This document shows, piece by piece, positions 46,007-56,898 of a DNA stretch of 64,000 bases; the first letter of the stretch is position 1; every line of letters starts with the position of its first letter. This stretch comes from Aeromonas piscicola. Lineage in GTDB: Bacteria > Pseudomonadota > Gammaproteobacteria > Enterobacterales > Aeromonadaceae. A model generated the notes under the pieces. It ran no database searches, had not been told where the DNA came from, and worked only from the letters and a program-made list of their open reading frames with translations. Where the stretch lies: the NCBI RefSeq assembly GCF_000820005.1, contig NZ_CDBL01000055.1, positions 48,935 to 112,934 on the forward strand. The letters run 5' to 3'. Both the position numbers and the translations under genes were made by a program.

Positions 46007-46357
46007 ATGGCGCAAGAAACCATTTTCAGCAAAATCATCCGTAAAGAGATCCCCGCCGACATCCTTTATCAAGACGATCTGGTGACCGCATTCCGGGACA
46101 TTCAGCCCAAGGCCAAGACCCATATCCTGATCATTCCCAACGTACTGATCCCCACGGTCAACGACGTGGAAGCCGAACATGAGCTGGCCCTCGGTCGCAT
46201 GTTCACGGTGGCGCGCAAGCTGGCCAGCGAGGCCGGGATCGCCGAGGATGGCTATCGCCTGATCATGAACTGCAATCGCCACGGCGGGCAGGAGGTCTAT
46301 CACATCCACATGCATCTGGTAGGGGGTCAATCCCTCGGGCCGTTGCTCTGCCTGTGA
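46007..46357 (+). CDS. hinT: HIT-family purine nucleoside phosphoramidase
   Basis: 116-aa protein with the histidine triad [13 protein letters not shown] near the C-terminus and N-terminal [27 protein letters not shown] lies just before the ATG. It heads the same cluster as in E. coli: hinT, ycfL, lpoB, thiK. The stop overlaps the next gene's ATG by one base. Confidence 0.96.
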
Positions 46358-47781
46358 TGCACCGGTTTCCCCGTCTGGCCGGCCTCCTGCTGGCCAGTGC
46401 CCTGTTGGGGGGCTGCGCCTCCCACTGGCAGGACATGTTCGTCTCCTATTCCGATCAGATGGTGCCGCTGCGCAACCAGCTGCTGCTGGGGCACGCCGCC
46501 GAGGCGCTGCCCGAGGTGCGCGAGTCCACCCTGGGGGACGACACCTATGTGCTGGACCGGCTTGAGCAGGGCCGCATCGCCTGGCTGGCCGGCCAGGATG
46601 CGGGCAGCAAGCAGGCTTTTGCCGCTGCCGACAGCCGCCTCGAGTGGGAAGACAATCAGGCCGAATACCGGCTGAGCCAGGGGCTGGGTCAGGCGGGCAG
46701 CCTGCTCACCAACGATCAGAGCATGGCTTACCTGACGCCGGATTATGAGCGCACAATGCTGCATCACTATCTGGCCCTCAACTACTTGCAGCGGGGAGAC
46801 GCCGACGGCGCCCTGGTGGAGGTGCGCCGGGCCAATCAGGTGCAGGAGCAGGCCCTCAAGGCGCGGGCGGGGGAGGTAAGCAAAGCCAGAGAGAAAGGGG
46901 CCAAAGCCAGTACAGAGCGGGAGATGCGCCAGCTGATGTCGCGCGGGGCACCGGATCTCGACCGGCTGATCGGCCAGGTGAAAAACGGTTTCCAGAACGC
47001 CTATACCTTCTATTTCTCCGGCGTGCTCTATGAGGCAGCCGGGGATCTCAACGATGCCTGGGTCGACTATCAGCGCGGCTATCAGATAGCGCCGGACAAC
47101 CAGAGCCTGCAGGATGCCTTGCTGCGCCTGGCGCGGCTGCGCGGTTCTCCCGATGAGCTCAAGGAGACCGAGAAGAAGCTGGGTCGCAAGGCGCCGCCTT
47201 TAACCAGGAATCAGGGGCAGCTGGTGGTGCTGTTTGAAGATGGGCTGATCCCGGCACGGCGCGAGCTGTTCCTGCCGCTGCCCATCTCCACCTCCAGCGG
47301 CGATTTTCGTACCTTTACCGTGGCCGTGCCCTATTACGACAACCGGGCCAGCAACACGGGCCCGCTGACGGTGTCGGTGGGCAAACGGGTTGAGCAGACC
47401 AGCGAGCTGGTGCGGCTGGAGGCGCTGGCCGCCAAGGATCTGCAGGAGCGGTTGCCGGGCATGCTGACCCGTCAGGCGCTGCGGCTGGTGACCAAGGAGC
47501 AGCTGAGGCGCACCGCCGCCAAGGAGGGGGGCGATGTGGGCAATATTCTGGTCGGCATCTTCAATACCCTCTCGGAGCGGGCCGATACCCGCAGCTGGCT
47601 TACGTTGCCGGCCCAGGCGTCCAGCTGGCAGAGCATGCTGCCGGCAGGCGAGGTGCAGCTCACCCTGGGAGCGGGCAGCGCCATGCGCACGCTGCCGCTC
47701 ACCGTTCACGGCGGGCGTACCACCCTGGTGTGGGTGCAGCGGCTCGGCGCAGGCCTGACGACCCGGGTGATGCCGCTCTAG
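46357..47781 (+). CDS. COG3014-type lipoprotein
   Basis: About 474-aa predicted outer-membrane lipoprotein: signal [20 protein letters not shown] with lipobox LGGC. TPR-like helices occupy about 40-260 (LNYLQRGDADGALVEVRRAN), followed by a beta-rich C-terminal half. Translation is coupled to hinT (TGATG overlap). It sits in the ycfL-lpoB cluster, where E. coli lacks it. It may assist envelope assembly; no function is established. Confidence 0.78.
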   Translation: MHRFPRLAGLLLASALLGGCASHWQDMFVSYSDQMVPLRNQLLLGHAAEALPEVRESTLGDDTYVLDRLEQGRIAWLAGQDAGSKQAFAAADSRLEWEDNQAEYRLSQGLGQAGSLLTNDQSMAYLTPDYERTMLHHYLALNYLQRGDADGALVEVRRANQVQEQALKARAGEVSKAREKGAKASTEREMRQLMSRGAPDLDRLIGQVKNGFQNAYTFYFSGVLYEAAGDLNDAWVDYQRGYQIAPDNQSLQDALLRLARLRGSPDELKETEKKLGRKAPPLTRNQGQLVVLFEDGLIPARRELFLPLPISTSSGDFRTFTVAVPYYDNRASNTGPLTVSVGKRVEQTSELVRLEALAAKDLQERLPGMLTRQALRLVTKEQLRRTAAKEGGDVGNILVGIFNTLSERADTRSWLTLPAQASSWQSMLPAGEVQLTLGAGSAMRTLPLTVHGGRTTLVWVQRLGAGLTTRVMPL

Positions 47782-47855
47782 GCACCCACTCAAACGACAA
47801 TGACACCCATGACTGATCGGTTGGGCCCCTGTGGCCGCCGGCTAAGGAGATCGAG

Positions 47856-48254
47856 ATGAAAGCATACGGGTTGGCCCTGGGGTTGGTTATGCTGCTGACC
47901 GGCTGCGCCACCAATACGTCCGGCGTGGCACTCTATGGTGCGGCGGGTGCGGCACCCGTGCAGGAGCAGCATCAGAATGTCAATGTGACTCTGACCGAGC
48001 TGAGCCGGCGCGAGCAAAACGGCCTGCTGCAGGTCAATGTGGCGGCGGCCAGTACCCAGCGCGGCGACAACAAGCTGCAATATCTGTTCTATTGGTATGA
48101 TGAGGCGGGGCAGGAGGTGGCCAGCGATGGTCGTGGTTGGACCCCCATCAAGCTGCACGGCTATCAGAGCCGCACCCTCTCTGCCCTGGCGCCGAGCCCG
48201 GCCGCCCGGGGATACCGGATTTACGTACGCGAAGTGATTGAGGAATCCTACTGA
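47856..48254 (+). CDS. ycfL: YcfL-family lipoprotein
   Basis: 132-aa lipoprotein with signal MKAYGLALGLVMLLTGCAT (lipobox LTGC) and the conserved DUF1425 core (LQYLFYWYDEAGQEV, GRGWTPIKLHGYQ). AAGGAG precedes the ATG. Its stop overlaps the lpoB start (TGATG). Confidence 0.88.
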   Translation: MKAYGLALGLVMLLTGCATNTSGVALYGAAGAAPVQEQHQNVNVTLTELSRREQNGLLQVNVAAASTQRGDNKLQYLFYWYDEAGQEVASDGRGWTPIKLHGYQSRTLSALAPSPAARGYRIYVREVIEESY

Positions 48255-48850
48255 TGAAAATGAATCATGCCCTGCTGATATTGACCGGCGCCCTGCTGCT
48301 TGGCGGCTGTTCCAGCACCACCGTCAGCTATGGCGATCCGACCGAAACCGAGACGGTGACAGTGGACTACGGTTCATCGGATCTGCAGGCCATCGCCGAC
48401 AAGATGGCGGACTCCATGCTCGCCTCGCCGGCCACCAGCGAGATCACCGCAGGCGGTCGTCCCGTGATGTTCATGGACTCCATCCGCAACAAGACCTCGG
48501 AGCACATAGATACCGAGGCCATCACGGACACCATTCGCACCAAGTTGCTGCGGGCCGGCAAGTTCCGCTTCGTCGACATGAGCAAGGTGGCGGCGGTCAA
48601 GCAGCAGCTTGAATACCAGCAGAGCAGCGGCATGGTGGATCCCGCCTCCATGGTGCGTCTGGGCAAGCAGACCGGTGCCCGCTACATGGTCTATGGCAAC
48701 CTCGCCAGCATCGTCAAGGACAACGGCAAGGTGAAGGATGTCTACTACCAGATGACCATGAACCTGATGGATCTGCAAAACGGTGAACTGCTGTGGGCCG
48801 ATCAGAAAGAGATCCGCAAACAGGCGAAGAAATCCACCTTTGGCTGGTGA
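48254..48850 (+). CDS. lpoB: Penicillin-binding protein activator LpoB
   Basis: 198-aa outer-membrane lipoprotein that activates PBP1b. Lipobox LLGGC (about 15-19), a short linker compared with enteric LpoB, and a globular domain beginning LQAIADKMADSMLASP. The ending LWADQKEIRKQAKKSTFGW is typical. Overlaps ycfL by one start/stop unit. Confidence 0.92.
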   Translation: MKMNHALLILTGALLLGGCSSTTVSYGDPTETETVTVDYGSSDLQAIADKMADSMLASPATSEITAGGRPVMFMDSIRNKTSEHIDTEAITDTIRTKLLRAGKFRFVDMSKVAAVKQQLEYQQSSGMVDPASMVRLGKQTGARYMVYGNLASIVKDNGKVKDVYYQMTMNLMDLQNGELLWADQKEIRKQAKKSTFGW

Positions 48851-49673
48851 TCTGGCGGAGCTGGAGCTGCTGGCCAGCCTGCCGGCCCCCTGGCGTTCGG
48901 GGCGGCTGGAAGCGCTGACCAGCGGCCTGACCAACTGCAACTATCGACTGCGCCTCCCCTCGGGGCGCAGTTATTTTTTGCGGCTCGGTCATCCGGATCC
49001 GACGCGGCTCGGCATCGATCGGGCGACCGAGTGGCAGCTCTATCGGGGGGCCATGGGTCAGGGGCTGGCGCTGCCCTGCCATCACAGCGATCTCGCCAGC
49101 GGCCTGATGCTGCTGGATTGGTGCGATGAACCCAACTGGGCCGAGGCGCCCCCGCCGCCCCCCGAGCAGCCCGGTCTGCTGGCCGAGGTGCTGGTGCGAC
49201 TGCACCGGCTGCCGGTGCCCGCCGTGGTGATGGCGGTGCGGGCTCATGCCGCCGGTTATCGCGGCCGCCTGGCCCGGATCCCTGAATGGCTGCCTGCGCT
49301 GGAGCGGGGGCTGCTCGCCAGCCGCGAGCCGGCCGATTGCAGGCTCCCTTGCCATCATGATCTCAATCCGGCTAATTTGTTGGGGTCGCGCCCCTGGGTC
49401 ATCGACTGGGAGTATGGCGCCGCCGGTCACCCCGGTTTCGAGGTCGCCAGCATACAGCGCACCCACGGCTGGGATGACGAGCGGCGAGCAGCGCTGGAAC
49501 AGCGCTATCTTGAACGGGCAGGGGGGACGCTGGGAGCAAAGGGCTTTCAGAGTCAGGCCTTCTTGCCCTGGGTCGACTACATAGGGCTGCTGTGGGCGCT
49601 GCTGATGGCCGAGCAAGTCCCCGGGCCCGATTACCAGGCCCTGATCGACACGAATCGTCAACTGCTGGAGTAA
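48840..49673 (+). CDS. thiK: Thiamine kinase-like phosphotransferase
   Basis: About 277-aa APH-type kinase in the position of E. coli thiK, which phosphorylates thiamine in salvage. The start is uncertain; a TTG at 48840 overlapping the lpoB stop gives MAGDLAELELLASLPAPW, and no ATG lies nearby. Kinase motifs: GLTNCNYRLRLPSG, catalytic HDLNPANLL (about 180) and IDWEYGAAGHPGFEV. Its last codons (IDTNRQLLE) are echoed downstream in degenerate repeats. Confidence 0.78.
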   Translation: MAGDLAELELLASLPAPWRSGRLEALTSGLTNCNYRLRLPSGRSYFLRLGHPDPTRLGIDRATEWQLYRGAMGQGLALPCHHSDLASGLMLLDWCDEPNWAEAPPPPPEQPGLLAEVLVRLHRLPVPAVVMAVRAHAAGYRGRLARIPEWLPALERGLLASREPADCRLPCHHDLNPANLLGSRPWVIDWEYGAAGHPGFEVASIQRTHGWDDERRAALEQRYLERAGGTLGAKGFQSQAFLPWVDYIGLLWALLMAEQVPGPDYQALIDTNRQLLE

Positions 49674-49786
49674 GGCCGGTGGCGGGGTTGTCAGGCGCCG
49701 CTCGACACGAATCGCCTACGCAGCAACGGCTGGCCTGGGCAGGATCAGATCGATATGAATCATCAACTCGTCAACCTTTGGAGTAG
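49642..49786 (+). repeat. Degenerate repeats of the thiK 3' end
   Basis: The motif TCGACACGAATCG of the thiK tail (49645-49657) recurs exactly at 49702-49714. A more diverged copy, GATCGATATGAATCATCAACT, occurs at 49747-49767, followed like the gene by GGAGTA. The GGAG of the last copy (49780-49783) now serves as the ribosome-binding site of the DUF6279 gene. Confidence 0.55.
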
Positions 49787-49789
49787 TGC

Positions 49790-50644
49790 ATGGTGACCTC
49801 CTTTTCCTGGCGTCAGCCCCGCAGCTGGAGCCTGCTGCTGATCTGTCTGCTGCTGGGCTGCTCCACCCGGGTGGTCTATTACTGGCTGGACGTGGCCATC
49901 GTCTGGCAGCTGGATGACTATTTCTCGCTGGATCGCAGCCAAAAGCGGCTGCTGGACAACGAGGTGAAGGGGCTGATGGCCTGGCATCGCCAGTATGAGG
50001 TGCCCCGTTACGCCGATGATCTGGACGCGCTGGCCAAGGCGGTGGCGAGTCCCATGAGCCCGGCTGAGGTCTCGCTTCATCTCAATGCGGCCCAGCAGAG
50101 CCTGACCCGCACCCTGGAGAACACGGTTCCCCGCGCCGTGCGGCTGGCGCGTACCCTGACCGAGGAGCAGGTGGCCATGTTCATGAAGGACAGGCTCAGC
50201 CGGCAGGCCGAGCGGGAGCAGGATTTTGCCCGCCAGCCCAAGGCCGAGCTGCTCAAGGAGTTCACCGGCAAGATGAACGAGCGGCTGGTGTTCTGGATTG
50301 GGGAGGTGAAGCCGGCCCAGGCGCCGCTGGTGGCCCAGTGGGTGGAGTGGCAATACGAGCTGCAGGCCCCCTGGCTGGAGTTTCAGACCGCCTGGACCAG
50401 GGAGCTGGACAGGCTGATGCAGCAACGCCAGAGCCCGGACTTCGGCGCCCAGCTCACCGCCCTGTTGCAGCAGGGGGATGGACTCATGGATGGCCGTTTC
50501 ACCGGTTACACGGATCAATCCCGCCAGCGCACCGTCAACTGGCTGAGCGCCCTGAGCCAGTCGTTGGACATCTCCCAGCGCGCCCATCTCTACACCCTGC
50601 TCAAGGGCTATGCCCGCGATTTCAGGCAGATGTCGCAGGGGTGA
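49790..50644 (+). CDS. DUF6279 lipoprotein
   Basis: 284-aa predicted lipoprotein: hydrophobic signal SWSLLLICLLLGCSTRVVYY with lipobox LLGC, then a helical body starting YWLDVAIVWQLDDYFSLDRS, characteristic of the family. Function unknown. GGAG lies 6 nt before the ATG. It lies between thiK and the secDF2 operon. Confidence 0.82.
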   Translation: MVTSFSWRQPRSWSLLLICLLLGCSTRVVYYWLDVAIVWQLDDYFSLDRSQKRLLDNEVKGLMAWHRQYEVPRYADDLDALAKAVASPMSPAEVSLHLNAAQQSLTRTLENTVPRAVRLARTLTEEQVAMFMKDRLSRQAEREQDFARQPKAELLKEFTGKMNERLVFWIGEVKPAQAPLVAQWVEWQYELQAPWLEFQTAWTRELDRLMQQRQSPDFGAQLTALLQQGDGLMDGRFTGYTDQSRQRTVNWLSALSQSLDISQRAHLYTLLKGYARDFRQMSQG

Positions 50645-50751
50645 GTTTCGTTTTCGGCCGGGCGCCGTGCGAGGCTTGATGGCCCTGCCGCCCTTGTCCT
50701 TGTTGGGTGCTTGTGGTAGTTTGCCCTTTCTATTATTTGGGAATTAACTTT

Positions 50752-51225
50752 TTGAGCCTGCTGGACAAAGTGAAACTGGCGTTGATGACACTGCTCATCT
50801 CGCTCACTCTGTTGCTCTCTACCATCTCGGTGGAGGGGCTCAAGGCATCCGCGCCTCAGGCCGCGTCCCAGCATGGCCAGGTGATGAGTGATGCCGGCAC
50901 GGGCGATCAGTCCGATACCGTGTTGGTGATCCACAGCGCCAGTGACAGCGACGACGGTGTCGTCAAGTTTGTCGGCTCCCACCAGAATCATCTGCTGCGG
51001 CTCGAACACTCTCTGCGCAGCGATCATCAGCCAGGCAGCGTCGTCTACGAGCTGATCATGAGCTGGTCGCAGCAGGCGATCCTGCTGCTGCTGTGCGGCC
51101 TGCTGCTCTACGCGGCGCTCTTCTACCCAAAAAACAGCTTCCGCGACCGCTTTGCCACCATTCACCGGCACAGGTTGCAACGCCAACACCTGCAATACCG
51201 CTTCTCCCAGAGTTATCTCGCATGA
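50752..51225 (+). CDS. Two-TM protein upstream of secD2; candidate secretion-monitoring leader
   Basis: About 157 aa from TTG 50752 (MSLLDKVKLALMTLL); GTG/ATG alternatives exist upstream and at 50785. An N-terminal signal/anchor helix (about 6-24) is followed by a polar, Ser/Asp/His-rich segment, a second helix (about 103-122, QQAILLLLCGLLLYAALF) and a 31-residue basic, aromatic and Gln-rich tail (HRHRLQRQHLQYRFSQSYLA). The tail is about ribosome-tunnel length. No enzyme motif is present. Vibrio secDF2 is preceded by VemP, an arrest peptide of similar size; position and layout suggest an analogous role here. That is inference, not homology shown. Confidence 0.6.
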   Translation: MSLLDKVKLALMTLLISLTLLLSTISVEGLKASAPQAASQHGQVMSDAGTGDQSDTVLVIHSASDSDDGVVKFVGSHQNHLLRLEHSLRSDHQPGSVVYELIMSWSQQAILLLLCGLLLYAALFYPKNSFRDRFATIHRHRLQRQHLQYRFSQSYLA

Positions 51226-51239
51226 CCCCGATGGGGGTC
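51224..51239 (+). promoter_or_regulatory. Hairpin over the leader stop codon
   Basis: GACCCC and GGGGTC can pair around the leader's stop. It may matter for ribosome pausing or turnover of the leader mRNA. Confidence 0.35.
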
Positions 51240-51270
51240 GGCCTTGCTGCACTGCCTCATCGTCTCCTGT

Positions 51271-51378
51271 AAAGCCTGCTCACCGCGCGTGAACGGGCGC
51301 CCAGTCTCATTTGTATTTTCTTGCGTGTCGTCCCCGCCATGGGTGGCGAGCGCGCCGCCTTCTCCTGACAGAGGCTTT
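51271..51378 (+). promoter_or_regulatory. Possible sequestration of the secD2 ribosome-binding site
   Basis: AAAGCCT at 51271-51277, 46 nt after the leader stop, is complementary to AGGCTTT at 51372-51378, which covers the secD2 Shine-Dalgarno (GAGG) before ATG 51383. A local hairpin CCGCCA/TGGCG sits between them. Such pairing could keep secD2 off unless opened. Confidence 0.4.
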
Positions 51379-51382
51379 TGCC

Positions 51383-53185
51383 ATGAGAAAAAAGAGTCGT
51401 ACCACCCTGAACCGCATGAGCATGTGGCAGTATGCCCTGCTGCTGCTCATGCTGTTCACCTTCGCGTTTTACTCCCTGCCCACCTTCTTTGGTGAGCAGC
51501 CGTCACTCGGCCTGCACGGCCAGACCAGTCTGACCGAGGCGCAGCGTACCCTGCTGGCCGACAACCAGATAACGCCGGTCAAACAGGTGCAACAGAAAGA
51601 GCGGGTCGAGCTGGTGTTCAACAGCCAGTCCGAACAGCAGAGGGCCAAGCAGCTGCTGGAGCAGCAGGGCTATGACAGCGCAGCCCTGACCCTGGAGTTC
51701 TACTCCAATGCGCCGACCTGGATCAGCCAGCTCGGCGCCGCCCCCATCAAGCTCGGGCTGGATCTGCGCGGCGGCTCCCAACTGCTGATCGGGGTCGATC
51801 TCAGCTTCGTGGTGGACAACCAGACCAGAAACCTGGTGGACATGCTGCGTACCCAGTTCCGCGAGGCGCGCCTGCGGGGCGCCAACGTGGCCCGGGTGAG
51901 CGAAGGGGAGGTGAGAGTCACGCTGCCTGAGGTGGCCGATCAGGCGCCCTGGCTCAACATCATCAAGGATTCCGCCGGTACCCGGCAGGATCAGTGGCAA
52001 CTCAATCGCAGCGGCAACGAGCTGCGGCTGGTGATGAGCGAGGCCGAGCGCACCCTGCTGGCCAACAACGCCGTGACCCAGAACCTGTCGATCCTGAAAA
52101 AGCGGATCAACGAGCTTGGCATCGTCGAGGCCTCGGTCCAGCGTCAGGGCCAGGATGGCATCCGCATCGAGCTGCCCGGGGTGCACAATCCCAAGCAGGC
52201 CAAGGAAGTGATAGGCGCCACCGCATCGCTGGCCTTCTACGAGGCCCAGGCCGACAGCCGTTTCTTCATGGCGGATCGCAGCGGTCAGGCTGTCGGTCTG
52301 GCCCGCAAGCCGGTGCTGAGCGGTGAGCACATCGTTGATGCGCGCGCCAATATGGGCGAGATGGGCCAACCCCAGGTCAATATCGTGCTCGACAGCCTGG
52401 GTGGCAGCAAGATGAACCAGTTCAGCCGCCAGCACGTGGGCAAGCCGATGGCTACCGTCTTCACCGAATACAAGACCAACGCCCAGGGCAAGCTGCGGGC
52501 CCAGAGCGAGGTGATCAACGTTGCGACCATCCAGACCGCCCTTGGCAACCAGTTCCGCATCACGGGTATTGGCAGTCTGCCAGAGGCCCAGGAGCTGGCC
52601 ATGCTGCTGCGGGCCGGTGCCCTTACGGCGCCGCTGAAGATCCTGGAGGAGCGCTCAATCGGCCCGACCCTCGGCTTGCAGAACATAGAGGCGGGCTTCA
52701 TCGCGCTGGCGTTCGGCATGGCGGGCATGATGCTGTTCATGATGGCCTGGTATCGCAAGTTCGGCTGGGTCGCCATCACGGCGCTCATCGCCAACCTGCT
52801 GATGCAGGTGGGCATGCTGGCCGTGCTGCCGGGGGCCGTGCTGACCCTGCCGGGGATCGCCGGTCTGGTGCTCACGGTCGGCATGGCGGTGGATACCCAT
52901 GTGCTGATCTTTGAGCGGATCAAGGACCGCCTGCGGGAGGGGGGGAGCCTTGCCAACGCCATCGACTTTGGCTATCGCTCTGCGTTTCGCACCATCTTCG
53001 ATGCCAACATCACCACCTTGATCTGCGCCGTGGTGCTCTACTCCATCGGCTCGGGCCCGCTGCAGGGCTTCTCCATCACTCTGATCCTGGGTCTCATCTC
53101 CAGCATGGTGACCGGCATCTGGGGCACCCGCGCCATCATCAACCCCCTGTGGGGCAAGCGCAGCGACAAGCTGCTGAGGGTGTGA
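51383..53185 (+). CDS. secD: Protein translocase subunit SecD, second paralogue
   Basis: 600-aa SecD with a cytoplasmic start (MRKKSRTTLNRMSMWQYALL), one N-terminal TM, large periplasmic P1 domain, and five C-terminal helices. Core motifs: LGLDLRGGSQLLIGVD, SILKKRINELGIVEASVQRQ, and the VLTVGMAVDTHVLIFERIKD helix with the proton/sodium-pathway Asp. It helps pull exported proteins across the membrane using the ion gradient. No yajC is adjacent, so this is probably the accessory SecDF2 of vibrios and relatives. ATG 51383 follows GAGG. Confidence 0.93.
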   Translation: MRKKSRTTLNRMSMWQYALLLLMLFTFAFYSLPTFFGEQPSLGLHGQTSLTEAQRTLLADNQITPVKQVQQKERVELVFNSQSEQQRAKQLLEQQGYDSAALTLEFYSNAPTWISQLGAAPIKLGLDLRGGSQLLIGVDLSFVVDNQTRNLVDMLRTQFREARLRGANVARVSEGEVRVTLPEVADQAPWLNIIKDSAGTRQDQWQLNRSGNELRLVMSEAERTLLANNAVTQNLSILKKRINELGIVEASVQRQGQDGIRIELPGVHNPKQAKEVIGATASLAFYEAQADSRFFMADRSGQAVGLARKPVLSGEHIVDARANMGEMGQPQVNIVLDSLGGSKMNQFSRQHVGKPMATVFTEYKTNAQGKLRAQSEVINVATIQTALGNQFRITGIGSLPEAQELAMLLRAGALTAPLKILEERSIGPTLGLQNIEAGFIALAFGMAGMMLFMMAWYRKFGWVAITALIANLLMQVGMLAVLPGAVLTLPGIAGLVLTVGMAVDTHVLIFERIKDRLREGGSLANAIDFGYRSAFRTIFDANITTLICAVVLYSIGSGPLQGFSITLILGLISSMVTGIWGTRAIINPLWGKRSDKLLRV

Positions 53186-53300: not shown

Positions 53301-54215
53301 ATGTTGAGAATGATCGTTGCCATGGGGCTGACCCGCTGGCGTTACATCGGGTTGTGGATCTCCGTGCTGCTGACGGTGGCGAGCATAGCCGTGCTGGCCA
53401 TCAACGGGCTGTCGCTCGGGCTCGACTTCACCGGCGGCATACTGCTGGAGTTTCGCATCCAGACCCTGAAAGAGGCCCATGAACTGAACGCCCTGCTGAG
53501 CGCCCCGCTGGCAGGGGCGGTCGAGCTGAGCGGCGCCGGCATCCCGGGGGAGTGGCTCATCAAGCTGCCACCCCACGAGCTGCCCTGGCCGGCCGAGGAG
53601 CTGGCTGTCATGCTGGGTCAACAGCTCAACTTGCCGGTGGAGCTGCTGCGCACCACCATAGTCGGCCCTCAGGTGGGTGCCGAACTGTTCCAGCAGGGGA
53701 TGCTGGCGGTGCTGGTGGCGTCGCTCGCCATCTCCGCCTACCTGGCGGTGCGCTTCGAGTGGCGTCAGGCCATCGCCATCCTGGTGTCTGTGCTGCACGA
53801 CGGCCTGGTGGCCATGGGGTTGCTGGCGCTGTTCAACATCGAGTTTGACCTCAACGTGATCGCCGGCCTGATGGCGGTGATCGGCTATTCCCTCAACGAC
53901 AGCATCGTCATCTCGGACCGGTTGCGGGACATCTTGAGCTCACGCACCAAGCTCTCCATCCATGACTGCTCGGACGTGGCGATCAAGGCGACCTTCAGCC
54001 GCACCATGATCACCTCGGGCACCACCCTGTTCACCGTGGGCGCCCTGCTGCTGTTCGGCGGCGATGCCCTCTACGGCTTCGCCTTCACCCTGTTTGCCGG
54101 CATCCTGGTGGGGACCATCTCCTCCATCACGGTCGCCTCCACCGTGCAGGAGCTGCTGGGTCTCTCGCCCCAGGCCTACCAAAAGAAAGAGGAGGAGCTG
54201 GCAGAGGCGGCGTGA
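53301..54215 (+). CDS. secF: Protein translocase subunit SecF, second paralogue
   Basis: 304-aa SecF partner of the preceding SecD. Six helices; conserved LGLDFTGGILLEFR near 33-46 and VIGYSLNDSIVISDRLRD near 193-210. GAGGA precedes the ATG. A 115-bp gap from secD with a hairpin (GCTTCCC/GGGAAGC) is longer than usual for secD-secF pairs. Confidence 0.93.
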   Translation: MLRMIVAMGLTRWRYIGLWISVLLTVASIAVLAINGLSLGLDFTGGILLEFRIQTLKEAHELNALLSAPLAGAVELSGAGIPGEWLIKLPPHELPWPAEELAVMLGQQLNLPVELLRTTIVGPQVGAELFQQGMLAVLVASLAISAYLAVRFEWRQAIAILVSVLHDGLVAMGLLALFNIEFDLNVIAGLMAVIGYSLNDSIVISDRLRDILSSRTKLSIHDCSDVAIKATFSRTMITSGTTLFTVGALLLFGGDALYGFAFTLFAGILVGTISSITVASTVQELLGLSPQAYQKKEEELAEAA

Positions 54216-54283: not shown

Positions 54284-54886
54284 CTAGAAACCGGAGCCCG
54301 GTTGCTGCAAAAATTCGGCCTCCTCCGGCGTGCTGGTGCGACCAAGTATGGCGTTGCGGTGAGGGAAGCGGCCAAAGCGTTCGATGATCAGCTGATGGCG
54401 GCGGGCAAAATCGGCGAAGCCCTCGAAGGTGGCCTGCGCCGGACCGCCGGCCTGCTCGGCCGCCAGCGCCTCGAACAGGGTCACGCTGCGGACTTGCTGC
54501 TCGCGTGATTCGGCATGCTCCAGCGGCAGGTAGAAGAAGACCCGTGCCAGCGGCGAGAGCGCCTTGTCTGCCCCCAGCGACAAGCCCTTCAGACAGAGAT
54601 CCCGGGCCAGCGGGTCCTGGGCAAAGGCGCCGGGCGTGGCGCGATGGATATTGCGTGGCAGTTGATCCAGCAGCAGGATCAGCGCCAGCCGGCCGACGGG
54701 CACCTCGGCCCAGTGGGCCAGAGAGCCGGTGGCGGCGGCTTCAGCCAGCGCCCCAAAGCGGCTGGCTATCAGCGTATCGGTTTCGCTGCTTTTTCCCCAC
54801 CAGAGCGGGGCTTGCCGTTTGGCGCGGGTGGCGTCGTCGGCGTCATCGCCAAACCAGAAATCGAGCAGAGATTGCCAGGGTTGCAT
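54284..54886 (-). CDS. DUF924 protein
   Basis: 200-aa cytoplasmic all-helical protein with family motifs LLDFWFGDD (about 6-14), LILLLDQLPRNIHRATPGAF and RFGRFPHRNAILGRTSTPEE. Function unknown. The ATG at 54886 has AAGGAG 5 nt upstream. A broken copy of the same gene and its upstream region lies at 56967-57361. Confidence 0.88.
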   Translation of the reverse strand: MQPWQSLLDFWFGDDADDATRAKRQAPLWWGKSSETDTLIASRFGALAEAAATGSLAHWAEVPVGRLALILLLDQLPRNIHRATPGAFAQDPLARDLCLKGLSLGADKALSPLARVFFYLPLEHAESREQQVRSVTLFEALAAEQAGGPAQATFEGFADFARRHQLIIERFGRFPHRNAILGRTSTPEEAEFLQQPGSGF

Positions 54887-55061
54887 GGGAACTCCTTGAG
54901 CCGGGTGGATCGGGGTGAAACAAGGCCAATTGACCCTGATGTGGTTGCGGCCTAACGGACGGCTTCTCGTTACACTGTGCCATCTTTTGCCTGAAATAAG
55001 GACCCCCTTCTTGCCGGCCTCCGCGTGTGGCATCTATCCGGTGTGCTGGCCGAGCTTTGGT
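54887..55061. repeat. Duplicated DUF924 upstream region, copy 1
   Basis: Roughly the first 100 bp (to about 54986) match 57362-57463 closely, including GGCCAATTGACCCTGATGTG and CTTCTCGTTACACTGTGCCA. Weaker similarity continues to about 55040. Copy 2 precedes the intact DUF808 gene. Confidence 0.85.
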
Positions 55062-55165
55062 GCAACAAGCTTATTCTGATGCCTGCCGCCATCGCTGCCA
55101 GTGTGGTTGCCAAGACCGAAGACAGTCTGGGTGAAACCGACGCGCTGGGCGAGAGTTAGCCGGCC
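55062..55165 (+). pseudogene. Chimeric fragment: DUF808 piece fused to a DAACS symporter 3' end
   Basis: 55062-55095 matches the DUF808 gene at 57759-57792 (about 32 of 34 bases, encoding NKLIL-PAAIA). From GCCATCGC (55088) the sequence switches to the 3' end of the DAACS symporter gene: it encodes AIAASVVAKTEDSLGET, with differences from the 38.9-kb gene mostly at third codon positions, then a stop. The 8-bp GCCATCGC is common to all three loci and marks the junction. No start or body of either gene is present. Confidence 0.85.
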
Positions 55166-55193
55166 AAGGCCTGATCACAACGTCATGAAAAAT

Positions 55194-55231
55194 AAACAAC
55201 AACGGCCCGCCAAAGCGGGCCGTTGTTGTTT
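55194..55231. terminator. Long terminator hairpin after the chimeric fragment
   Basis: AAACAACAACGGCCCGC and its exact reverse complement form a 17-bp stem with a CAAA loop, ending TTGTTGTTT. Confidence 0.8.
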
Positions 55232-55278
55232 ATGTGTCGTCTACACTGCTAGATAGTTTACATCTGGAGTGTATGGTT

Positions 55279-56898
55279 ATGAATATTGCTCGTCGGCTTC
55301 AACTGATAGCTCTGTTGGTTATCCTTGCCCTCATTTTTCTCAGCTGGTTCAGTATCAACCGCCTCGATTCGGCCAACCGGGATCTGGGTTATGTAACGGA
55401 CAATACGGTGCCAAGTATTACTCTTATCAAGGAGGTACAGGCCGATTTCTATGAATTGCATTCGCTGGTGCAAACCCATGTGCTCAATACCGACACCGGC
55501 AAGATGCAGCAGATCGAAACGGACATCTCCGATAGACGGGGACAGATCAATTCACTGCTGGACAAATATAAAGGCGAGCTGCTCTCCAACGATGAAGATC
55601 GGCGCCTGACCGACGATGACCAGCGGATTGTCGCGCAATATTATCAGGAGATAGACAAGGTTCTGCTGCTGTCGCGCCAAAACAAGAACGAGGAAGCCAG
55701 AGATATGCTGGCGGCGGAGGCCATCAAGCTGTATCAGCAGTTCGCCAAGGCGATAGCGCTCCATGTCACCTTCAATATCGATTTAGGGTTGGCACTCAAG
55801 GCGCAAGGCAAGGAGAACTACGACAACAGTCTGGAAACCCTGATCTTTATTGCCGGTGGTACCGGATTGTTAACTTTGGGATTATTTACTTGGCTATTCA
55901 TGCAGGTTGCCAGCCCGCTACGCACTGCCATGGATACCCTCACCCGGATCCAGCGCGAGCTCAATTTTACCCTCAGAGCCGATGTCAAACAGCAAGATGA
56001 GATTGGCCTGACCCTCAATGCCGTAAATCGTCTGCTCGATACGTTGCAGCAAACATTCACCGAGTTTTCCGTCGGCAGTTTGCAGATCAAGAGCACAGCC
56101 GAGTCACTCTCCCAGGCGGCACAACACCTTGCCAGCTCGGCCAGTCAGGCAAATGATGCCACAAGTCTGATCGCAGCTGGCGTCGAAGAGATGACGGTCA
56201 GTATCACAGATATCTCACAACGCACTCAGGAGACGAGCCGCATTACCAATGAGTCAGGCCAGCTAGCAACTGAAGGTGGCAAGACCATAGATCGCACCGT
56301 CCGAGCTATTAACGAGATTGCTGACTCCATCAGGCAGGCTTCTGCAGAGGTGATTGCGTTGGGTGAGGGAATTTCGCGGATTGGTGGCGTGGTCAGCGTG
56401 ATCCGCGATGTGGCGGGGCAAACCAATTTACTGGCGCTGAATGCGGCCATTGAGGCGGCGAGGGCCGGTGAGTCCGGTCGTGGCTTTGCCGTGGTGGCGG
56501 ATGAGGTGCGCAAGCTGGCAGAGCGTACGGCGCAATCCACTCAGGAGATATCAGCCACGGTAGAGGCGATCCAGCAGGAATCCAATAATACGGTATCCCG
56601 CATGAATCTGGTGGAGGAGAAGGTGAGCCAGGGGGTTGCCATGGCGACGGAGAGCGGCGCCATTATCTCCGAAATCAGGAGTGCATCGCACCGTGTGATG
56701 GAGCAGGTGGGCGAGATCACCAATGCGATCCGCGAGCAGAGTGCCGCCGCAGAGTCGATTGCCCATCAGGTGGAGAATATTGCCCAAGTCGTGCAGCAGA
56801 CCAGCAGCACCGCCGAAGAGACCTCGGCAGCCGCCGAGGAGCTCAATGTCACCACTGAGAGCATCCATCAGCAGATATCCCGCTACCGTATTCAGTAA
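55279..56898 (+). CDS. Methyl-accepting chemotaxis protein
   Basis: 539-aa chemoreceptor: TM1 (about 7-26), four-helix-bundle periplasmic domain (about 30-185), TM2 ([20 protein letters not shown]), HAMP and signalling domain with [16 protein letters not shown] at the tip. The start ATG 55279 has GGAG 9 nt upstream; ATG 55273 is possible. It is somewhat AT-richer than its neighbours and sits between the two DUF924 copies, which suggests insertion or rearrangement here. Its terminator is at 56927. Confidence 0.9.

Follow-up and report, generated by a model that had tools for sequence, protein, structure and literature searches.

A candidate VemP-related leader with a second hydrophobic segment upstream of secD2 in Aeromonas piscicola

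VemP of Vibrio alginolyticus is a secreted soluble chain with an established translational arrest. It is defined in the literature as a secD2 uORF with the motif RxxxWKxxNxxY, and uORFs without this motif were removed from the published classification (PMC10987492). In the stalled ribosome, Gln156 occupies the P site and Asn147-Gln156 forms a helix at the peptidyl transferase centre (PMC5449182), so that the stall lies at Asn+9. Arg-85, which is located within the exported portion 58 residues before Trp-143, is needed for regulated arrest, the W143A exchange abolishes arrest, and the VemP model includes masking of the secD2 ribosome-binding site (PMC7793623). SecM, ApdA/ApdP, ApcA and the RQH family are further sec/yidC uORFs that combine a signal with a conserved C-terminus (PMC10987492). 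Among the insertion monitors, the YidC monitor MifM of Bacillus subtilis has an N-terminal segment and an arrest sequence of its own (NAR 2021; spacing in PMC10987492).

Here we describe u1, a leader ORF ahead of secD2 in a 64,000-nt window (the whole stretch of DNA that was analysed) of the A. piscicola genome. Like VemP, u1 lies ahead of an orthologous secD2 and has an N-terminal signal, an intercistronic hairpin, a counterpart of Arg-85, an aromatic residue near −42 and 9 to 12 residues after the Asn position at the C-terminus. Unlike VemP, it lacks RxxxWKxxNxxY, has basic residues in place of SGWKE, and carries a transmembrane-type second hydrophobic segment (TM2) between the Tyr-x-Leu region and the motif; its arrest is predicted. 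u1 shares with MifM and other insertion monitors a hydrophobic segment at a set distance that could generate a releasing pull, but it has two segments and an unrelated tail sequence. It also differs from SecM, ApdA/ApdP, ApcA and the RQH family, since no motif of the R-A-P-P/R-A-G-P type is present.

Four features have been used to recognise monitoring substrates (PMC10987492): (i) a small unknown uORF before a sec/yidC gene, (ii) an N-terminal signal or membrane segment, (iii) a conserved C-terminal sequence, and (iv) a distance of over 30 residues between the signal and the point where the conserved sequence ends. u1 precedes secD2 and shows feature (i), which its paralogue u2, located ahead of nqrE2, does not. 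The u1 N-terminal segment was judged by hydrophobicity only, its C-terminus is conserved, and approximately 126 residues (from residue 25 to 151) separate the two. A literature search combining Aeromonas, arrest peptide and secDF returned no paper, and Aeromonas is not named in the accessible main texts of two arrest-peptide surveys, whose supplements may differ.

The u1 leader and its locus

The features of the leader and of the genes that follow are listed below in window positions.

50694–50722, + strand: probable promoter, with TTGTCC (50694–50699), a 17-nt spacer and TAGTTT (50717–50722), read from the sequence
50714–50715, + strand: TG of the extended −10 of this probable promoter, read from the sequence
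50739–50743, + strand: weak Shine-Dalgarno-like GGGAA ahead of the u1 TTG; the context is GGGAATTAACTTT-TTG in most u1 loci
50752–51225, + strand: u1, leader ORF of 157 codons with a TTG start and a TGA stop
50776–50826, + strand: N-terminal hydrophobic signal/anchor, residues 9–25, after KVK; hydrophobicity 2.32 (17-residue Kyte-Doolittle mean)
50998–51000, + strand: Arg83, counterpart of VemP Arg-85; invariant aligned column (39/39 rows of alignment A1, 25/25 of A7)
51079–51129, + strand: TM2, second hydrophobic segment, residues 110–126; hydrophobicity 2.51; ends 31 residues before the u1 C-terminus
51130–51222, + strand: basic, Gln/aromatic-rich tail of cytoplasmic type, residues 127–157 (31 residues); dN/dS 0.05 in six close species
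51187–51204, + strand: HLQYRF motif, residues 146–151; His146 is the counterpart of VemP Asn147 in the alignments
51214–51216, + strand: codon 155, predicted equivalent of the VemP stall codon (Asn147 + 9 = Gln156), from the alignment and PMC5449182
51370–51374, + strand: AGAGG ribosome-binding site of secD2; CCTGACAGAGG is conserved with few exceptions in an alignment of 24 sequences
51383–53185, + strand: secD2; NCBIfam NF009545, 743.5 bits (cut-off 728), and Pfam SecD
53301–54215, + strand: secF2; TIGR00966, 255 bits (cut-off 160), and Pfam SecF

The gap between the u1 stop and secD2 is 157 nt, and secF2 comes next. The other SecD of the genome is 44% identical to SecD2 and is encoded on a different contig, which makes secD2/secF2 a second pair. 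This agrees with the first-pass annotation, which had placed a 157-aa protein directly upstream of a second secDF pair. Its description of an N-terminal signal/anchor helix, of a second hydrophobic helix about 31 residues before the C-terminus, and of a basic, aromatic and Gln-rich tail also held. The interval that it had marked, 50752–51382, comprises u1 and the 157-nt intercistronic RNA. The upstream neighbours (46354–50644) encode a 475-aa protein without a Pfam match, DUF1425, LpoB, a phosphotransferase-family (APH) protein and DUF6279, and the downstream neighbours (54284–56898) encode DUF924 and a methyl-accepting chemotaxis protein.

In 31 of 32 loci, the assigned u1 start is preceded, at a distance of at most 75 nt, by a promoter-like block TG[AG]TAG[CT]TT. 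The start codon was TTG at 29 of these loci and ATG at 3, and a TTG start after GGGA is apparently used by u1 and u2 alike. Leader starts and secD2 starts are uncertain at three loci (L053, L054 and L056). No Pfam or NCBIfam family matched u1 above its cut-off, which says little because the 37 VemP-type proteins compared below have no consistent family there either. The search of Rfam gave one match below the cut-off, judged to be chance, and no convincing relative of the leader was found among solved structures.

u1 was present in 36 of 37 Aeromonas genomes, and reading of the DNA placed secD2 downstream in 36/36. The only Aeromonas genome without u1 (G035) has just the other SecD and no secD2. 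At locus L055 of G014, which fits A. fluvialis, u1 is in pieces, secD2 lacks most of its length and secF2 is decayed. G004, which fits A. bestiarum CECT 4227, has a leader that shares 97% identity with the A. piscicola one. In six close species, the mean dN/dS was 0.13 for the loop, 0.15 for TM2 and 0.05 for the tail; the corresponding values in six other species were 0.23, 0.14 and 0.14. u1 is a real gene under purifying selection. The invariant columns of 39 u1 and u2 sequences include Arg83, Trp105, Gly116, Arg150 and Phe151. The loop before Arg83 is variable in length, and the spacing from Trp105 to Arg150-Phe151 is constant within one residue in the rows compared.

Sister genera (Tolumonas and two MAGs) have a leader of the same build ahead of secD2, with tails such as AAYWNLKNLQFRFSHSRN. 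The leader was detected in 7 of 15 sister-genus genomes, and the identical 7 carry secD2; one of these matches is a contig-end fragment, and several of the 8 genomes without the leader are incomplete (63–87%). The first-pass annotation had tied its idea to conservation of the C-terminal tail, and such conservation was found in Aeromonas as well as in the Tolumonas-type relatives. Tolumonas-type SecD1 matches (e.g., G410:C1:1164266-1166110) contain one in-frame TAA in several genomes, which may be an alignment overrun.

The profiles were built from 13/20 u2 and 26/36 u1 sequences (A1), or from 20 Aeromonas u1 sequences and 5 from other genera (A7). Because the A1 and A3 profiles contain rows from the genomes searched, leader presence in those genomes is by construction and the absences are informative. 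With the full-length profile A1, no match was obtained among 372 genomes from other genera of the order, a sample with no Tolumonas type and with the best 10 candidates per genome scored. Outside Aeromonas, 8 weak matches were returned by profile A3 (E 5e-4 to 9e-3), six of them with in-frame stops. SecD2, SecF2, NqrE2, RecJ and DUF6279 were not found by tblastn at these 8 loci; the sole hit there was that of u2 to a 16-residue stretch of L148. This locus (G130:C72:146-205) is a short contig-end frame, QRRDDRRLNCHHRQYRFCHG, whose resemblance to the tail of u2 (E 5e-4 against u2) is probably due to chance. A weak leader match in G416 (E 0.009) was treated as chance.

Relationship to VemP and the second hydrophobic segment

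SecD2 matches over the family cut-off were found in 98 of 394 genomes across the order, and 40 regions upstream of secD2 were chosen from these matches. An ORF was picked in 38 regions (none in L200 and L208), with a preference for WK or LQ[YF]RF near the end, and 37 ORFs with WK..N were kept, so this VemP set is partly motif-selected. Three members (L217–L219) are close to V. alginolyticus VemP (...HRISGWKETNAMYVALNSQF...). The ORF that was dropped, L206 (G051, family f16), precedes secD2, has neither WK..N nor LQYRF and ends in ...GGRLTHNLDRFAAWRS; it is perhaps another diverged leader.

The hhalign comparison of 25 Aeromonadaceae leaders with the 37 VemP-type uORFs gave a score of 32.8 (E 4.4e-5, probability 69%), compared with 14.8 for the best of 200 column shuffles and 13.7 for the reversed VemP profile. 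Without the last 28 columns, the score was 31.7 (E 2.3e-5), and this alignment covers the region from the Arg to YxL. The last 28 columns alone gave an E of 1.3e-3, with WKxxN-x-x-Y aligned to [NH]-LQY. When only the last 85 columns were used, the score was 21.1 against a block-shuffle maximum of 18.0. The hhalign probability is moderate, 49–69% in scripted runs and 36–37% with the Aeromonas-only alignments A1 or A2. An N-terminal match (E 5.5e-4) comprises just 12 hydrophobic columns and was given no weight.

The spacing of landmarks agrees with the profile comparison. An Arg is present 56–61 residues before the Trp position in 35/37 VemP-type and 25/25 Aeromonadaceae sequences, against an Arg background of 4% at any one position, and u1 Arg83 is at 59. 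An aromatic residue is present 42–44 residues before the Trp position in 29/37 and 24/25 sequences, respectively. The C-terminus extends 9–20 residues past the Asn position in the 37 VemP-type sequences (9 in 5 of them), 11–17 in 35 u1 sequences, and either 9 (11/20) or 15 (9/20) in u2. In the sets counted it never has fewer than 9 residues there, and Asn+9 is the last residue of the shortest forms.

The first-pass annotation had called the protein motif-free. The tail has instead a conserved [NH]LQ[YF]RF, in which Arg150 and Phe151 are invariant (39/39 rows), and it is the published VemP motif and its arrest Trp that are absent. In Aeromonas u1 there is no WK, the Asn is mostly His, and the Tyr position (Y/F) is retained. 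The Trp is replaced by Leu, Arg, His or Glu, and the SGWK part, which lies in the mid-tunnel, is gone. Four of the 25 Aeromonadaceae rows of A7 retain the Trp, none of them from Aeromonas. Among the 37 VemP-type tails, 7 carry RF at Asn+4/+5 (e.g., SGWKVSNLQYRFSQQAA), all of them in family group f6. The series SGWKxxNLQYRF, YWNLKNLQFRF and basic-HLQYRF looks like a stepwise change.

This comparison favours a reading of u1 as a diverged homologue of VemP, and the suggestion of a VemP-like leader now goes beyond analogy of position. Since the published motif is missing, u1 is filed as a VemP-related variant and not as VemP. Convergence of an arrest peptide of separate origin on this position and on a similar motif would fit the patchy, independent origins of this class of arrest peptides (PMC10987492) and an hhalign probability below 95%. 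We regard such an origin as highly improbable, because the matches are collinear in two separate regions with conserved spacing, and intermediates exist with Trp and NLQFRF (Tolumonas) or with SGWK and NLQYRF (seven VemP-type tails).

The loss of the Trp raises another possibility, namely that u1 is a decayed VemP that kept both export and membrane insertion and lost arrest, acting at most through translational coupling or as a constitutive leader. The residues now found at the Trp position, the missing SGWK part and the effect of W143A on VemP speak for such decay. A sequence released from selection would not be expected to keep its tail, yet the u1 tail is among the best conserved parts of the protein (R150 and F151 in 39/39 rows; dN/dS 0.05 to 0.14), and the leader is lost wherever secD2 is lost. 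We therefore rate decay as improbable.

TM2 also separates u1 from VemP. The mean best hydrophobicity of this region was 2.33 in 25 u1 (minimum 1.76) and 2.57 in 13 u2 sequences, against a mean of 0.81 and a maximum of 1.89 in the equivalent region of the 37 VemP-type proteins, with ranges that just overlap. By this measure TM2 is a new feature relative to VemP, in line with the remark in the first-pass annotation that the second helix was not a known part of VemP. TM2 starts 45–48 residues before Asn+9 in 25/25 u1 rows; in A. piscicola its first and last residues lie 45 and 29 residues ahead of codon 155. Force measurements showed that pulling by a helix sets in when approximately 45 residues separate its N-terminal end from the peptidyl transferase centre and ceases once its C-terminal end is approximately 45 residues away (PMC7886326). 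With the ribosome at the predicted stall codon, TM2 would thus just be starting to enter the membrane, as it begins where helices start to pull. We propose that u1 may be a membrane-insertion monitor, with segment limits taken from a 17-residue window.

Intercistronic RNA and the proposed mechanism

Two hairpins were predicted in the RNA between u1 and secD2.

51223–51239, + strand: H0, short hairpin starting at the u1 stop codon (TGACCCC GAT GGGGGTC); 92% of cells paired in 17 sequences
51275–51297, + strand: H1, intercistronic hairpin with covariation, in 17 of 32 distinct sequences from one lineage

The RNA alignments contained 24 (A8) and 17 (A9) of the 32 distinct sequences. H0 showed no double changes among its 17 sequences. 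The covariation score of H1 was 0.245 versus 0.138 in shuffles, with 0 of 500 reaching it, and slid controls gave at most 0.116. In the other Aeromonas lineage (7 sequences), H1 is not formed in that register. A T-rich tract (51300–51325) lies approximately 20 nt after H1 in the aligned Aeromonas loci.

The pairing of the secD2 ribosome-binding site was above shuffles in only 1 of 15 sequences (fraction 0.02) and no stronger than shuffles in the other 14. Masking by a conserved long-range partner was rejected as unproven, as the predicted partners also differ between species. The GAGG site is missing at three secD2 loci.

We favour the reading, and consider it probable, that u1 is a regulatory nascent chain descended from VemP. 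The N-terminal segment would target the nascent chain to the Sec translocon. A helix near the peptidyl transferase centre, formed by [NH]LQ[YF]RF and about five further residues as the counterpart of VemP Asn147-Gln156, may then slow or arrest the ribosome near codon 155. A working translocon would pull the nascent chain, in VemP through export of a soluble chain and in u1 probably through entry of TM2 into the membrane, with the start of TM2 approximately 45 residues from the peptidyl transferase centre at the time of the pull. The pull would end the arrest and leave secD2/secF2 at a low level. Under poor export or insertion, the ribosome would remain in place, and the intercistronic RNA may adopt a form that permits secD2 translation. 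The opening of secD2 by arrest is the weakest step of this mechanism, since masking of the ribosome-binding site is not borne out by prediction.

The paralogous leader u2 and nqrE2

The profile search identified a paralogous leader, u2, in 22 of 37 Aeromonas genomes. At 20 loci (L031–L050; in G000:C39 and a further 19 genomes), recJ is followed by u2 and, after approximately 150–205 nt, by a lone nqrE-like gene, and the coordinates indicate the same arrangement in the remaining two genomes (G002 and G012). NqrE is a subunit of the Na+-pumping NADH:quinone reductase (Na+-NQR). The gene after u2 matches TIGR01940 nqrE over its cut-off (E 1e-91). This gene, nqrE2, is 70% identical to another nqrE of the same genome that adjoins an nqrD-like match. 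At an identity of at least 88%, nqrE2 is found in exactly the 22/37 Aeromonas genomes with u2 and in none of the 372 genomes from other genera of the order, whose best matches reach approximately 70%. Cys26 and Cys121, which we take to bind the Fe-S centre, are retained in 20/20 and 19/20 NqrE2 sequences, respectively; the exception is L038 (G025; fits A. salmonicida), the sole NqrE2 of the 20 in which Cys121 is replaced by Trp. A conserved hairpin before nqrE2 was visible by eye, yet it was not accepted, as its mean z was only −0.7 over the 20 loci. Literature searches for nqrE with Aeromonas and paralog, and for nqrE with arrest peptide, found no paper.

A nascent exported copper sensor (mBio 2023, PMC9973294) reportedly controls downstream genes outside the Sec machinery. 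It would be a precedent for an nqrE2 leader; the target and the metal signal differ, and the likeness drawn here is one of description.

u1 could also be a small working membrane protein, for instance an accessory subunit of SecDF2 (and the paralogue one of NqrE2), which does not stall and binds a partner through its tail. The two hydrophobic segments, the fixed distance from TM2 to the end, the purifying selection and the strict co-occurrence of the leader with the downstream gene would suit such a protein. That one leader family precedes two unrelated second-copy genes, secD2 and nqrE2, argues instead for a regulatory role and against a shared complex. The homology of the leader to an established arrest peptide, the presence of at least 9 residues after the Asn position in the VemP and Aeromonas families alike, and the 157-nt gap with a covarying hairpin between leader and secD2 also speak against a working protein, which we consider unlikely.

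Descent from VemP with a regulatory role thus remains our preferred reading of u1. A bolder one is that VemP became a membrane-insertion monitor by way of TM2 and was then duplicated, with u2 controlling the lone nqrE2 by a like arrest. We offer this tentatively, as a possibility that we would not yet expect to hold in full.

The u1 family indicates that an arrest-peptide family can lose its recognition motif and yet stay under strong selection. Surveys based on motifs miss such cases, as uORFs without the motif are removed in the published VemP classification (PMC10987492). If TM2 is the release element, u1 would be a natural experiment in which the readout of a force-sensing chain shifts from export to membrane insertion. 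If u2 acts on nqrE2, control by nascent-chain sensors of the Sec type would extend to a respiratory sodium pump. Should the bolder reading be true, two leaders would couple conditions at the translocon and in the membrane both to the spare SecDF motor and to the composition of the Aeromonas sodium pump.
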